NCBI GenBank assembly: GCA_963565915.1
Contig: OY751491.1
Coordinates: 2,666,001 to 2,730,000, forward strand
Direction of reading: 5' to 3'
DNA: 64,000 bases
Source: Entoloma clypeatum
Lineage: Eukaryota > Basidiomycota > Agaricomycetes > Agaricales > Entolomataceae
Below are positions 34,448-41,325 of this stretch, piece after piece; within the stretch, counting starts at the first letter, position 1, and each line of letters opens with the position of its first letter. A program made the position numbers and the translations under genes. A model generated the notes under the pieces. The model was not told the origin of the DNA, ran no database searches, and saw nothing but the letters and a program-made list of their open reading frames with translations.

Positions 34448-34603
34448 TCTTTGGCGCTGTCGTTACTGCAGGTATAACCCGAAAAATGAATGTATTTAGT
34501 GGCATACTAATACATGTGGTTTATCGATTGTGCATGATTTGGGAGAGGCCCCGCTAGGGGCTCCGACTAGCTGTGGTCTGTGATATGGGACAATGTGAGC
34601 AGC
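34448..34603 (-). repeat. Ngaro-like repeat B2 (3' terminal)
   Basis: 156-bp copy of B, beginning TCTTTGGCGCTGTCG and ending GTGAGCAGC on the plus strand. It contains a GCCCCGCTAGGGGC hairpin. Marks the 3' end of the element. Confidence 0.88.
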
Positions 34604-34718
34604 ACGGGTGGGCGGTCAAGGCACCGTTGTTCTGCGACTGTCTCGTCAGTTGTCCTCAGTGTCACATTACCACGACTGTCCAGGGGAGTGGTATGTGGAG
34701 AGGGAGTGGAGGGTGGGT
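34604..34718. other. 115-bp spacer between A2 and B2
   Basis: Unique sequence between repeats A2 and B2. I find no second copy of it in the window. Confidence 0.7.
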
Positions 34719-34853
34719 AAAAGGAAACGAGCTTATCAGCTCGTGCTGCTGGAACGTGGACGCGGCAGAGAGAAAGAGTTGATGCCGCATCCACGTGATG
34801 CGCCGAAGACAATACTCAAGTTCCCTCATGCCTCGCTCACTTGATTGATACTC
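34719..34853 (-). repeat. Ngaro-like repeat A2 (internal)
   Basis: 135-bp second copy of A, starting AAAAGGAAACGAGC with a CGAGCT-TATC-AGCTCG hairpin and ending TTGATTGATACTC on the plus strand. It abuts B1 with a 2-bp overlap (TC), which looks like the junction of a circular intermediate. Confidence 0.88.
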
Positions 34854-35007
34854 TTTGGCGCTGTCGTTACTGCAGGTATAACCCGAAAAATGAATGTATT
34901 TAGTGGCATACTAATACATGTGGTTTATCGATTGTGCATGATTTGGGAGAGGCCCCGCTAGGGGCTCCGACTAGCTGTGGTCTGTGATATGGGACAATGT
35001 GAGCAGC
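34852..35007 (-). repeat. Ngaro-like repeat B1 (internal)
   Basis: 156-bp copy of B directly downstream of the recombinase gene and joined head-on to A2. Confidence 0.88.
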
Positions 35008-35067
35008 GCTCCCCGAGACATTAGGAGTGTAGTGACGCACGCTGAACAGTTGTCCCCATGAAATTAG

Positions 35068-36345
35068 TCAATGCGCTCCGGCGTTGGTTCTCCGTCGGAT
35101 GGGCGGCATGGTGTGTCGAAGGAACTCATCGCTTAGAGTGGTGTTGTCCTGCATATAGGGAGCCATGATTTCTGTGTGGGCTCGTAGATAGACAGTGAAG
35201 GCTTCGCTGGCCCATCTTCCCTTTACTCTTAGTGCGTAAAACGGGAGTCCACGGAGGAGATATTCAAGGGTGGCTCCGATCCTGATGCTGTGGCCCTGTA
35301 GCAGTGGTTGGTTGGTTGCTTTGAGAACTTCGTTGAGACGTTTTATGAAGGCGTGTCGGGTGAGGGGGCGGAATTTTCGTTCCCCCGTCTTGCGGTACGC
35401 GAATAGCGCAGCTTCTTCAGGTGGGTTGTTGATTTTGAAATGGTTTTCGAGTGCGGCTTGGGGATCGGCTTCGTTGTTTTGTCTTGCCCAGTATACATCC
35501 TCCCCACCTGGTGAGGTCTTGGTACGTGGAAGACGGAAGACATGTTGAGTGTTTCCGTGGCGGTCGGTGATGATTTTAACATCTTTTCGCTTGACGTGTA
35601 TGTTGGGATTGAAGTGATCTAAGTTCTGTACTGTGAACTCCCCTAGACGCGCCGCGCACCAAAAGGTGGTCGTGAGGCAGGCGTAAATTGACGCGTCGAG
35701 TGGATCTGCTAAGTTTAGCAGGTTCTTGATGGTGCAAACTGTCGAGAGGAGGAGGGGGGGACGTTTGGCTTTCTTGGAATCGGGCGGCGTGAGGTTGAGG
35801 GCTGCCCTGAGAAGTGTGTTAATGGTGGGTTTGTGTACATCCAGGGGGAGGCCGTGGATGATGTGCCATGCTCGTATGGCTGCCATGTAGTTGGTGATGG
35901 TGGATACTGAGTAAACACCTGCTAGTGCTGAGGCGAAGACTTCAATGAGTTCGCGGGAGGCTGGGGCTCGATCTCTCTCTGGGATTCCGGCATGATCGCA
36001 AAATATATGAAATGCCGCCAGACCTGATCCATAAGTTTCTTCCGTGCTTGAAGCCCATGCTTCTTTTAAGATGTCTTCTACGTGAGAGACCATTGCTTGA
36101 GTGAGGGGAAGAGGTTCGCCTTGGTTGTTGAGTGGTAAACGTGTCGTAACTGGGCGCCAAAGCCTGAGTCGGTCTTTCGCAAGACAAGGGGGACGGAGGA
36201 TGATTGTGGGAGGTGTGTCATGGCCATCTGCTGGTGGGATGTTGACATTCATCACGTTGGCTGGTGTCTTCATCCTCATTAGGATCTCGGTCGTGGTTGG
36301 GGCTGATAGTGGTGCGATGCCGACCGAGGCTAGCACTGCTGTCAT
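35068..36345 (-). CDS. Tyrosine recombinase (YR) of the Ngaro-like element
   Basis: About 425 residues from the ATG at 36345 (MTAVLASVG...); the frame stays open upstream to 36996 but that part overlaps the RT-RNase H gene and looks like a shadow. The core-binding part has EDILKEAWASSTEETYGSGLAAF and ITNYMAAIRAWH. The catalytic domain shows the expected residues: Arg in CAARLGEF, HxxR in GHSIRIGATL, Trp in KGRWASEAF, and the nucleophile Tyr in TVYLRAH. It would insert a circular cDNA by strand exchange. It overlaps the preceding gene by 128 bp in another frame, so translation probably needs reinitiation or a separate transcript. Confidence 0.87.
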   Translation of the reverse strand: MTAVLASVGIAPLSAPTTTEILMRMKTPANVMNVNIPPADGHDTPPTIILRPPCLAKDRLRLWRPVTTRLPLNNQGEPLPLTQAMVSHVEDILKEAWASSTEETYGSGLAAFHIFCDHAGIPERDRAPASRELIEVFASALAGVYSVSTITNYMAAIRAWHIIHGLPLDVHKPTINTLLRAALNLTPPDSKKAKRPPLLLSTVCTIKNLLNLADPLDASIYACLTTTFWCAARLGEFTVQNLDHFNPNIHVKRKDVKIITDRHGNTQHVFRLPRTKTSPGGEDVYWARQNNEADPQAALENHFKINNPPEEAALFAYRKTGERKFRPLTRHAFIKRLNEVLKATNQPLLQGHSIRIGATLEYLLRGLPFYALRVKGRWASEAFTVYLRAHTEIMAPYMQDNTTLSDEFLRHTMPPIRRRTNAGAH

Positions 36346-38353
36346 TTTTGATGAGGTGGAGTAATTCGAGGGTTTCCTGTTCGAGTTCGCTATGTAAGTG
36401 GCAGAGCTGGCGTCGTTCGTCAAGGTTGATGAGCTTTGGTTCGTGGTGTCGCGATAGGGTAGCCATCCTGCTCTGAAAGTCTGAGATGTCATGGACGAGA
36501 TCTGCGATTTCTGGGGGAATGTCGAGACGAGGGAGGAGGAAGTGGGTGGGGGGGTATATGCCTCTTGACGGACCATCTGCTGGGTTGCGAGCTGAGGGAA
36601 CGTAGCTCGTGTGGATGTTAATTCCCAATTCTTCTTCCAGGTCGTGAATTCGTCGAAAGATGTTGTTGATGGCCTGGTTCTTGCTGCGACCTCGCCACCA
36701 ACCCTCAACAACTCCCTTGTTGTCTCCGTAGATGTAGAAATGCTTGATGCTGGGATGGAGTTTGATGACCCCGAGGACGATGAGCTCAAAGCCGACTGCT
36801 TCGGCCCACCCAATGTCCCTGCCATCCGTCTTCCAGCCCTCTGCCAGCGTCCACGCTCGCCATTGTGGTCCGAGGGTGATCCCGATTCCTGTCGTAGAGC
36901 TGGCATCCGAGAAGGCTTGAAGTTCGAGTATTTCGGTTGGTGGGGAAATGAGTCGAGGGAGTGGGGGTTTGGACAACTGCTCCGTCCACCATTCAAGGTC
37001 CTTGATGACTGATCGTGGTGGGGTGCGTGGCTTGAAGGGTTCGGCGTGAAATAAACCGAACATAATTTCCAGACCCGTGAGGTATGCGCGGCCTCGTGGG
37101 ATTACATAAGAGGCATGCAGGAGTTTACCATACAATTTCCTCAGTTCATCGAGATTGTGGGTGCGTTTTGTGGACCAGTCAACAATGGCTTTGCGGTACT
37201 TGTCATTCTTCTTGTGTGGGAGGGAGACTGTTTTATGTTCAAGGTCCCAGTGAAGTCCAATGAACTCAGCCGTCGTGGCGAAAGGTGTGTCTTTGGTGAG
37301 CTGCCACGGAATTCCCAGGTAATCGGATATGTCGTCTATGTCTTGCATGCCATATGCGTACATGTTATTAGGATTGTGGGCGGGCAGAATTTTGAGTGGG
37401 AATTTCATGTCTTCGTGCCACTGTTCGACATGGTTGTCCGGCCAGGTTCTCCCTGTGAACCATAGACGTCCCCCTTCATGCTTCTGTCCTCCGTTGTCAA
37501 TGATGGTCTGCCTCAGGTCATTACGAAGTATGTTGTAAGTTTCAATATGTTCTCGTCGCAGCCTGAAGAAAAGGTGGTCATCTACCCACTTGGCTATGGG
37601 ACCAATGCCCCGTGCTCTCATGATGTCTAACTCTGCATCTGCTATGAGGCCGTGGACTCCAGCCGACGAGGCTAACCCGAAGCAACAGCATGTGTCGATG
37701 GCGAATTCATCATCTTCTGATAAGCGCACTACGAGGCCTGGCCACTGATCTGGTCTGATGGGAACAGTGCGATATGCTTCGGCTACATCTCTTGTTGCTG
37801 CTTCGGTTCCCGCAGGTAGGGAGGATTTGAGGTTGCAGACAGTGTCGAAAGTTCCCCAGGAGCAAGGAAATTGGGAGGTGTCAATCGAGATATTGATTGA
37901 TGGGTTATTGTTGGTGTGACTTGGACATGGAAAGGACAGGTCCTGAATTAACCTATACTTTCCTGGTTGTCCTGGTTTGGGAATGATGGACATGGGTGAT
38001 GTTTGGAAGGGACCGATTTCGGCTTCGAGTTCCAGTTTTGTGAAAGGACCCAGATAACGTTGCTTGTCGAACTCGTTGTGTATCATATTGTGGAAAAAGT
38101 CTGTATACGTGGAAATGGAGGGGTTGTTAGGAGGTGTGTGTGTGTGGAAGATGCGCGTGATGCCCGCGTCGAAACCAAAGATTAAACTAGTGGGTATGGT
38201 AGGGTACTTAGCTATGAGTCCATTGTCTACTAAGGCCTGATGCCAGTGCTGTGGTATGTACGGAGTGATGGCCTCATTTCTGCGGAGAGCAAGGCTCAGT
38301 GAGAGGGCAGGTTTGGGCGCCGTGGGTGCTGACTCCGCATCCTGAGCACTCAT
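36218..38353 (-). CDS. Reverse transcriptase-RNase H of the Ngaro-like element
   Basis: 711 codons from MSAQDAESAPTAPKP. RT motifs: MSIIPKPGQPGKYRLIQDLSFP, RDVAEAYRTVPIRPDQW (catalytic Asp), FGLASSAGVHG, and KWVDDHLFF as the YxDD box with Trp in the first place. The connection has YLGIPW and EFIGLHWDLEHKTVSLP. RNase H has FSDASSTTGIG, GWAEAVGFEL, YGDNKGVVEGW and ARNPADGPSRG, giving the four acidic residues. No integrase and no methyltransferase segment follow. Its start overlaps the gag stop by 80 bp in another frame. Confidence 0.88.
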   Translation of the reverse strand: MSAQDAESAPTAPKPALSLSLALRRNEAITPYIPQHWHQALVDNGLIAKYPTIPTSLIFGFDAGITRIFHTHTPPNNPSISTYTDFFHNMIHNEFDKQRYLGPFTKLELEAEIGPFQTSPMSIIPKPGQPGKYRLIQDLSFPCPSHTNNNPSINISIDTSQFPCSWGTFDTVCNLKSSLPAGTEAATRDVAEAYRTVPIRPDQWPGLVVRLSEDDEFAIDTCCCFGLASSAGVHGLIADAELDIMRARGIGPIAKWVDDHLFFRLRREHIETYNILRNDLRQTIIDNGGQKHEGGRLWFTGRTWPDNHVEQWHEDMKFPLKILPAHNPNNMYAYGMQDIDDISDYLGIPWQLTKDTPFATTAEFIGLHWDLEHKTVSLPHKKNDKYRKAIVDWSTKRTHNLDELRKLYGKLLHASYVIPRGRAYLTGLEIMFGLFHAEPFKPRTPPRSVIKDLEWWTEQLSKPPLPRLISPPTEILELQAFSDASSTTGIGITLGPQWRAWTLAEGWKTDGRDIGWAEAVGFELIVLGVIKLHPSIKHFYIYGDNKGVVEGWWRGRSKNQAINNIFRRIHDLEEELGINIHTSYVPSARNPADGPSRGIYPPTHFLLPRLDIPPEIADLVHDISDFQSRMATLSRHHEPKLINLDERRQLCHLHSELEQETLELLHLIKNDSSASLGRHRTTISPNHDRDPNEDEDTSQRDECQHPTSRWP

Positions 38354-40246
38354 GTCGTTTGCTGTGATCTGCGCGATTGCAGCCGCTGACTCGTTGCCAG
38401 TCCAAGCATAGGACTTGGCTGAGGGGGTTGATCAGTTGCCCCTTCGAGTCCCGGGAGCATCTGGTCCTCTTACCGTTCCATGAGGATGTCGCAGCGCAGT
38501 CTGCGATCTTGTGCGCGTGTCTCCCTAGACAGACAGCGCATGCGGAGAGGCTGGTTGGGACAGTCTTCTCGGTGCTCCTTCGGGTTCGGTTCCTCTTGCC
38601 GCGTTGGGGGGAAGCCGAGCGAGAACGGCCACCTCTGCGTGCAGCTGGGGATGCAGAGCGTTGTCCATGGCGTCCTCGACCCAATCGGATGCGGTGGGAT
38701 ATCGGGGGGGAACGGGCTGGGGAAGGTGAGCGGTTGCTGGAGCTGTGGTCCATGGTCCGCCTTCCGTGATTGCGAGCGTTGGTGGCGGTGTTCTGAAGCC
38801 GAGAAGTAGGAGAGGGGGAAATCGCGATTTGGGGGAGAGTGGATTCGAAGAGAGTGGTGTGCCGCCGAGTTTTAAAGGTTGAAAGAGGGGGAGGAATGAG
38901 GGGAAGGCATGGATGTGGTGGTGATGTGATCATGCATGTGGTTGAGGCGTGTTGGTGACGCGAGAATGATAAGGTGCGCGGTGAGCGAGGAGCGGCACGC
39001 ATTGTCATCGAGGCACAGGTGTGTGTGTCCGTGAGCGAGGAATAGAAAAGAGTGAGCAACAGACCCGATGATTGGGTTGAAGTAGGATGAGTGTATGGGT
39101 TCGGTTGGTTTGGAAGCACAACGCGACACGTGATGATGCGGCGTTGGTTATGTGCGGGCCGTTTGCACGTTGCAGTCGTGAGACATGTGCGGCCAGACGC
39201 CAGTGTAGCGTGAGGTGGATGCATGACGCAAGCGAGCATCGGTGTGACGCCGGTTGTGCGCATGTGAATGGGTTTGTTTGTTGAGGTGATAGTACGGTAT
39301 GATTGGGTTGATGAGAAATGAATGGGAAAATTGTGAATAAAGCTGAATGTTGTTTGAGAAATTGAGAACGTACCATGCTTATGTTGTTCCTGACGAACGT
39401 GAGGCGGGCTTGGATGTTGAGTAGGCGTTGAGAGCTGAATTCGGCAATGTCGAAGGCATCGTCGGTGCCTAGGGTGTCGAACCACTGTTTTCGAACTATG
39501 GCCTGATATTCGATGAGGGCGTCATCTATGTCGTAAGCTTGGTTAGTGCGTTCGAAGTCTAGGCCACAGAAGAAGTCGACTATAGCGTTGATGTGGGTAG
39601 GTGGGAAACGCTCTTCTTTCATCGTGCGTGCGAAGATCTTCCCTGCGAAGGAGATTTGATCCCAGGTGAGCGCTGTGTCAGGTTGCGCGTTGCGAGAGGC
39701 TTTCGTGGTGGAGATGGAGCGTAGTTGAATAGATGTGGAGTCATCCATGGCGATGCCGAAGGTTTCGTTGGCGACAGATGTGGTCGGTCTGGCGGCTTCG
39801 AGACAGCCTTCCTTCGTGAAGTACCACAGTTCTACCCATTCACCTTTGCGCAGTTTCCCTTTGGCGTAGTCGGAGGGTTGGAGTTTGTCGTTCCTCGGTA
39901 CTCCTGCTCCCCTGGGGAATGCCCCTGCTTTGGCGACTTTCTTCTCCGAGTCTTTAGCCGCTTCTTGCGTAGCCAATCTTTCTGCTTCTCGCAGTGCCTC
40001 CTGTTCGTCCGTTTCTCTCGCGATCCTTTCCGCCTCCTCTCGCTCTCTCTGTTCCTCCGCTAATTTGGTTTGCTCCCATTGGTCGTGTCGGATTTGCCGG
40101 TAGGCTACCCATGATTCTCGTAGGAGTAGGATGACTTCGTCTGGGGCCACGTTGCGGTTGAGGAGATTCTGCCTCGAGGTGGTGTAGGCCTCTCCCTCAA
40201 AATTGGGTTCAGTGTCGAGAAGGGGGTCGGGGATGTTGAATGGCAT
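38274..40246 (-). CDS. Gag-like ORF1 of the Ngaro-like element, with an intron
   Basis: The start at 40246 (MPFNIPDPLLDTEP...) opens an Arg/Glu coiled coil (EEQREREEAERIARE), then a helical domain with FFCGLDFERTNQAYDID ending NNISM. A GTACGT donor at 39373 and a CAG acceptor at 38793 would remove 581 nt and restore frame to a basic RS-rich segment followed by two cysteine knuckles: CAVCLGRHAHKIADC (C-x2-C-x5-H-x4-C) and CSGCGVSTHGAQTC (classic C-x2-C-x4-H-x4-C). The protein ends EPCSPQK. Without splicing the two halves lie in different frames, so the intron is inferred from frame and domains. Probable nucleocapsid protein. Confidence 0.72.
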
Positions 40247-40463
40247 TAGTCGTGGTTAAGTATTGTGTGTGTGTGTAAAGGAATGACAATGAGAAAAGAA
40301 TGACAATAGGGAAAGGAGAAGATTGAAAATACGTGAGGTGTCTCGAAACGAGCTTTATCAGTTGAGGGTGTTTGGAGGTGTGGATGCGGCTGTGTGCGAT
40401 GAGTTTGACGTTCATTTCGCAAATTGCTTGGGCCTTGAAGCTTGAAGAGGTATGGTAGATGTC

Positions 40464-40598
40464 AAAAGGAAACGAGCTTATCAGCTCGTGCTGCTGGAAC
40501 GTGGACGCGGCAGAGAGAAAGAGTTGATGCCGCATCCACGTGATGCGCCGAAGACAATACTCAAGTTCCCTCATGCCTCGCTCACTTGATTGATACTC
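40464..40598 (-). repeat. Ngaro-like repeat A1 (5' terminal)
   Basis: 135-bp copy of A at the 5' end of the element, outer edge GATACTC next to host ATCGACGTCC. It should carry the element promoter. The insertion edge is 101 bp before the RBX1 ATG. Confidence 0.88.
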
Positions 40599-40699
40599 AT
40601 CGACGTCCACCTTACGTCAGCGGCTCTCATCTCATCTCCCAACCATCTCCTCAGACAATCACCACTACCTCCTCTCCGTTTGTCCGCTGACCCACTACG
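40599..40699 (+). promoter_or_regulatory. Residual RBX1 5' flank
   Basis: 101 bp of pyrimidine-rich host sequence remain between the Ngaro edge and the RBX1 ATG (many TC/CCT tracts, no clear TATA). The distal promoter now lies 6 kb away or is supplied by the element; this is inferred. Confidence 0.45.

Positions 40700-41325
<626 letters not shown>

Follow-up and report, generated by a model that had tools for sequence, protein, structure and literature searches.

Retrotransposons that encode a tyrosine recombinase (YR) have been surveyed across the fungi, where 2241 of them, DIRS and Ngaro types taken together, were reported from 42 of 177 genomes, the DIRS elements in early-branching lineages and the Ngaro elements almost only in Basidiomycota (PMC3783388). 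As far as the available part of that survey goes, the basidiomycete Ngaro elements form groups 1-4, group 4 being represented in RepBase by CcNgaro3 (Muszewska et al. 2013, PMC3783388), VIPER elements are known only from kinetoplastids, and standard profiles find reverse transcriptase (RT) domains half as often as RNase H in such elements (PMC3783388). The replication and insertion of YR retrotransposons are so far mostly a matter of models. A genome that holds five close copies of one element, a checkable empty site, many related families and recombination by-products allows rules for the junctions to be read from the sequence itself.

Such a genome is the 60-Mb assembly of 20 contigs to which our window belongs (the whole stretch of DNA analysed, 64,000 nucleotides, C10:2666001-2730000). 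We are highly confident that the window, which comes from an agaricomycete-like fungus, contains a Ngaro-type retrotransposon (DIRS order, with a tyrosine recombinase) that inserted recently and has the life cycle proposed below. We base the Ngaro-like identity on the repeats, the gene order, the YR residues, a Cre-like predicted fold, several absences in Pfam and a sister copy that inserted with no duplication of its target. Three things give the element its use: a rule for the junctions, a putative intron in gag, and by-products of recombination. Among titles and the opening lines of abstracts we noticed no account of junction rules, introns or solo copies, and we claim no novelty for them.

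Like the basidiomycete Ngaro elements, as portrayed in the available part of their account, the element combines an A-pol-B-A-B layout with gag, RT-RNase H and YR, has no methyltransferase, and resides in a basidiomycete-type host with several families per genome; in contrast, a gag intron, an A2-B2 spacer and solo copies are not described in that part (PMC3783388). The Ngaro elements of Cafeteria burkhardae, so far as their available description extends, are likewise about 6 kb long and organised as A1-ORFs-B1A2B2 with a gag-like ORF, RT-RH and a YR with HxxR and Tyr, but Pfam names their RT and YR, whereas the proteins of the window give no match over the cut-off (PMC8547959). With the DIRS1-like elements, in the excerpts available, the element shares YR insertion from a proposed circle, the lack of target duplication and frequent ORF overlaps; DIRS1 itself has inverted repeats and a methyltransferase, whereas here the repeats are direct and no methyltransferase is matched, and the 3-bp junction of DIRS1-like elements is proposed to recombine with an identical target, whereas here the targets differ from the junction (PMC3266345). 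The features of the element, in coding order, are as follows.

40464..40596, minus strand: A1, the 5' split direct repeat, 133 bp, 100% identical to A2, delimited by five copies with different flanks
40247..40463, minus strand: 5' leader, from comparison with four close copies, 60 bp absent at 40448/40449
39374..40246, minus strand: gag exon 1, 291 codons, where matches in six sister copies end near the same residue
38793..39373, minus strand: predicted phase-0 intron, 581 nt, GTACGT...CAG, GT conserved, 3' site putative
38274..38792, minus strand: gag exon 2, Cys/His-rich (zinc-knuckle-like), overlapping the RT start
36218..38353, minus strand: RT and RNase H, 711 aa, WVDD box and RNase H acidic motifs, from conservation and predicted fold
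35068..36279, minus strand: tyrosine recombinase, R-K-H-R-W-Y, start codon uncertain (ATG at 36279, frame open to 36996)
34852..35007, minus strand: B1, the internal counterpart (156 bp) of the 3' repeat, ending in CCAAAGA
34719..34851, minus strand: A2, internal copy of A, 133 bp, abutting B1
34604..34718, minus strand: spacer of 115 bp between A2 and B2, with homologues in sister families
34448..34603, minus strand: B2, the 3' terminal repeat, 156 bp, 100% identical to B1

The minus (coding) strand thus reads A1-gag-RT/RNase H-YR-B1-A2-spacer-B2 over a total of 6.15 kb, the A1-ORFs-B1-A2-B2 order of Ngaro elements with the internal copies downstream of YR. Self-comparison of the window gave two exact direct repeat pairs, 34448-34603 with 34852-35007 (156 bp) and 34719-34853 with 40464-40598 (135 bp), both at 100% identity, and chance is excluded as their source. 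The initial annotation had called both pairs intact at 135 and 156 bp and had named divergence between their members as a ground for rejection; the identity and the length of B are borne out and no divergence is seen, but A proper is 133 bp, two target bases having been counted with it, and the element proper spans 34448-40596. This 5' boundary and the length of A are fixed because five copies carry differing flanks before A: the dinucleotide preceding GTATCAATC belongs to the target and reads GA in the window copy and E4, TT in E2, GT in E3 and AA in E5, and the GA at 40597-40598 resembles the B1/A2 junction by coincidence. The end of B is CCAAAGA in all five copies, B1 directly abuts A2, and the spacer between A2 and B2 is unique within the element, with homologous stretches in sister families. 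The 60 bp of leader that the window copy lacks are kept in 4/4 close copies, and their absence may affect replication; loss of an intron by way of RNA was considered as its origin and rejected, the ends of the 60 bp not being GT-AG.

Four close copies, along with many diverged relatives, are found in the same genome:

C10:4242569-4248776: E2
C9:3701111-3707317: E3
C13:3928295-3932902: E4
C1:5698754-5704561: E5

In every compared piece longer than 100 bp, E2-E5 differ from the window copy at no more than 1.3% of aligned positions, gaps uncounted; E5 also has 2 differences in a 60-bp 3' piece and an 8-bp gap in A1. All four have damaged reading frames: E2 has lost one base of gag exon 2 and carries a stop in RT, E3 has a 2-base deletion and a stop in YR, 1,197 nt of RT are gone from E4, and in E5 both RT and YR are interrupted by stops. 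Codon changes in RT are mostly nonsynonymous (nonsynonymous to synonymous 14:4, 9:3, 5:2 and 14:4 in the close copies), an excess compatible with decay after insertion. The insertion in the window looks young because its A and B pairs show 0 differences over 289 bp. An isolated 74-bp piece of B, 97% identical to the window family, occurs at C1:785423-785496, with no A or coding match beside it in the 3 kb covered here.

The mode of insertion can be read most directly from E3, which sits in a high-copy repeat. Its joined flanks match all 40 places scored (of 930 first-look candidates) over all 260 bases. Three of the places were compared with E3 over 60 bases round the join: two show no difference there, and the third shows 2 mismatches. 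These empty sites firmly support an insertion in which the element, its terminal GA included, was added with no duplication or loss of target DNA. E2 lies at the edge of a repeat, where the paralogue at C10:4241872 crosses the join but covers no more than about 10 bases to its left, a partial empty site that points to the same exact insertion; the joined flanks of E5 returned solely E5's own two halves. The 3' flank of E2 belongs to a cluster of about 115-bp repeats, present in both orientations and recurring on several contigs (C10:4241872-4242420, C8:4629599-4632533).

GA stands at the right (3') junction in 17/17 tabulated cases, the two counted bases lying outside the motifs by which the junctions were chosen by eye, and in 3/15 tabulated left (5') junctions, where the two bases before A1 were taken. 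The table includes families without a match to the repeats of the window (L027, L037, L038); it excludes, on the left, L059 and L061, where the start of A is not fixed by an internal junction, and, on the right, L031, which has an unclear end, and L054 and L056, in which the end has diverged or been partly deleted. Each copy was entered once, duplicate views being dropped. The five targets, compared by eye, share no identity with the circle junction. In integron cassettes only one strand is exchanged and the remainder is settled by replication. A speculative reading of the table, which we think doubtful, is that Ngaro integration is directional, with the terminal GA on the B side, one strand exchanged and the rest completed by replication, possibly from single-stranded cDNA. 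Two symmetric strand exchanges across a 2-bp overlap, if resolved at random, would be expected to produce mixed ends; a more prosaic explanation is that GA lies outside the overlap. Three related A copies (L057, L058, L059) all have GAC before the start of A, hinting at a target preference or at a longer A end in that family.

RT/RNase H lies upstream of YR on the same strand, and the two frames are both open, in different registers and with a short overlap. The catalytic residues of the recombinase are R228, K271, H347-x-x-R350, W373 and Y381; an alignment of 45 YR sequences shows K271 and R350 without exception and each of R228, H347, W373 and Y381 in at least 90% (44 of the 120 listed homologues were used for this alignment and 30 of 120 for that of RT). 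The R-HxxR-W-Y signature and the Asp-Asp box to which the initial annotation had pointed are both in place, the latter as WVDD, and two of its three open genes, RT and YR, are open as claimed, but gag is not a single open frame. Predicted structures (mean pLDDT 80.9 for YR and 84.1 for RT) were compared with known ones in Foldseek. The 27 best PDB matches of the YR model are all Cre or Cre variants (best E 3.4e-08), followed by Flp and XerD, and the structures nearest to the RT model are the RTs of foamy virus, caulimovirus, Ty3 and MMLV (best E 3.9e-13). For the RT, Cre, Flp and XerD matches listed, TM-scores are modest, at about 0.24-0.58, and rmsd is large.

Five ORFs of the window, RT and YR included, gave no Pfam match over the cut-off; Phage_integrase is matched by 13 of 45 YR family members and the window's own YR matches nothing, while among 31 RT family members none matches RVT_1 and seven match DNA_pol_viral_C. 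The RT assignment is made on motifs and predicted fold because Pfam gives no RVT_1 match. In searches of PDB sequences, neither the YR nor the RT profile found a match with an E value of 1 or less. Pfam matched no methyltransferase, aspartic protease or DDE integrase in the window ORFs, the 45 YR or the 31 RT members, at limited sensitivity; a methyltransferase in pol, a DIRS/PAT feature, is accordingly not seen in the window ORFs or the 31 RT members, and no Crypton-type model is listed for the 45 YR members. Crypton DNA transposons, which are not known to carry an RT, have YR-mediated insertion in common with the element and differ from it in that the window element has a predicted RT, recognised by motifs and modelled fold, and RNase H. 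Among the candidates scored, 623 YR and 797 RT proteins reached E<=0.001, and the species-named relatives among the best 120 of each are basidiomycetes. For the neighbour gene of the element, the top species-named hit comes from Blastosporella zonata, at 53% over 83%.

We propose that RNA would run from A1 to B2, being spliced for gag and left unspliced as the template, and that RT/RNase H would convert it into cDNA while the internal B1-A2 block would serve as a bridge from one end to the other. A circle with the B|A junction CCAAAGA|GTATC would then form, and YR would recombine this junction with many different targets to give a linear A1...B2 copy free of target duplication. The internal B1|A2 junction is the one expected of a B2-A1 circle and is consistent with a circular intermediate. 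The anatomy, the identity of the repeats, a sister copy's exact insertion and the fixed end of B are seen in the sequence; RNA, circle, splicing and catalysis are what we infer.

Other identities have been weighed against the Ngaro assignment. Split direct repeats are also found in PAT and VIPER elements and, in the available part of one account, are argued to have arisen more than once (PMC4157794), so that membership in another YR retroelement group, PAT or VIPER-like, with convergence on this arrangement could be imagined. It is very improbable, given that no methyltransferase is matched in the scanned ORFs and relatives and that the species-named relatives among the matches listed are basidiomycetes. 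In the available part of the fungal survey, moreover, VIPER is known only from kinetoplastids and fungal Ngaro almost only in Basidiomycota (PMC3783388). Still more remote, and scarcely credible to us, is a pair of tandem elements or a chimera in which a retroelement body adjoins a Crypton-like recombinase. The silence of Pfam on the window's own RT and YR leaves room for it, as does the composite origin suggested for YR retroelements in the accessible text of PMC4157794. Against such a composite, however, a single repeat system surrounds all three genes, gag, RT (partly deleted in E4) and YR recur in the four close copies, gag exon 2 is followed by YR in the same order in sister families (for example C13:2336905-2340344), and no Crypton-type family is listed for the 45 YR members.

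The structure of gag has two competing readings. A 413-aa gag ORF reads through a conserved 5' splice-like site, exon 1 ending as ATG|GTACGT. The Cys-rich second half is encoded in a different frame, which joins exon 1 in phase after the CAG at 38793. We consider gag to consist probably of two exons around a 581-nt spliceosomal intron. In 7/7 gag copies examined (the window and six sisters; L057, inspected as an eighth, gave no match to gag and was uncounted) a GT in splice-like context falls at a shared codon position, give or take one residue, with the sister contexts GTAGGT, GTATGT, GTACGT, GTGAGT, GTACAT and GTACGT in L058, L061, L062, L066, L067 and L068, where L068 falls in one family with L062 and L067. 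An unspliced gag, in which two separate ORFs would be read from one RNA and the second would start at its own ATG, would accord with the ATG found close to where the second ORF begins in the window, L061, L062 and L067, and with L061, where stops interrupt exon 2 and no in-frame 3' splice site is evident by eye. Against it, the GT has its shared position in all seven copies, in L061 and L066 the frame beyond the GT hits a stop within 12 codons, and in the window a CAG 39 nt upstream of the ATG puts the two frames in phase; we regard an unspliced gag as unlikely, though it deserves some weight. A conserved intron in gag, if real, would show the template to be unspliced RNA. Searching the same genome with gag exon 2 gave 53 matches, a number that counts the exon's match to itself and, for some copies, several pieces separately.

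These observations also qualify two judgements of the initial annotation. Its description of the element as apparently complete is weakened by the 60 bp missing from the leader and by gag, which seems to need splicing. Its suggestion of a type element is weakened by these same two points and by the previous description of Ngaro in Basidiomycota (PMC3783388), the window copy being a well-preserved but ordinary member of its family.

Recombination between repeats predicts two kinds of product, solo A-spacer-B units from A x A and single-B copies from B x B, and structures of both kinds are present. E4 and E5 have a single B and lack B1-A2-spacer. At L064 a 428-bp A-spacer-B unit is 98.8% identical to A2-spacer-B2 of an element on C10, its flanks show no further match to that element, and no gag exon 1, RT or YR match was found in the 3.1 kb examined; L055 and L056 resemble it, as does L065 with extra sequence inside. 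These solo units, the counterpart of solo LTRs, could instead be integrated small circles, but recombination of A1 with A2 yields the same structure, as B1 with B2 does for E4 and E5. The 3' regions of 29 YR loci were surveyed, and 11 have a B1/B2-type pair; 15 of the other 18 are without a direct repeat of at least 60 bp, as for a truncated copy or an end beyond the examined DNA, and in L010, L029 and L035 the best repeat is not the B1/B2 pair. The spacing of B1 to B2 is 401-442 bp in L027, L031, L037 and L038, though their repeats do not match those of the window.

The element lies upstream of, and in opposite orientation to, a gene for RBX1 (RING-box protein 1) in the stretch 40599-41283; the gene starts at about 40701 on the plus strand, about 100 bp from the 5' end of the element. 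An exon piece matches RBX1-type chains with E down to 5e-17, and the RBX1 region flanking the 5' end is single-copy, with no second copy in the genome. Of 2401 candidates for RVT_1 in the same genome, 150 matches were scored; many of them share one score and have 1245-codon open frames, which suggests a separate, recently expanded retroelement family, probably of LTR type.
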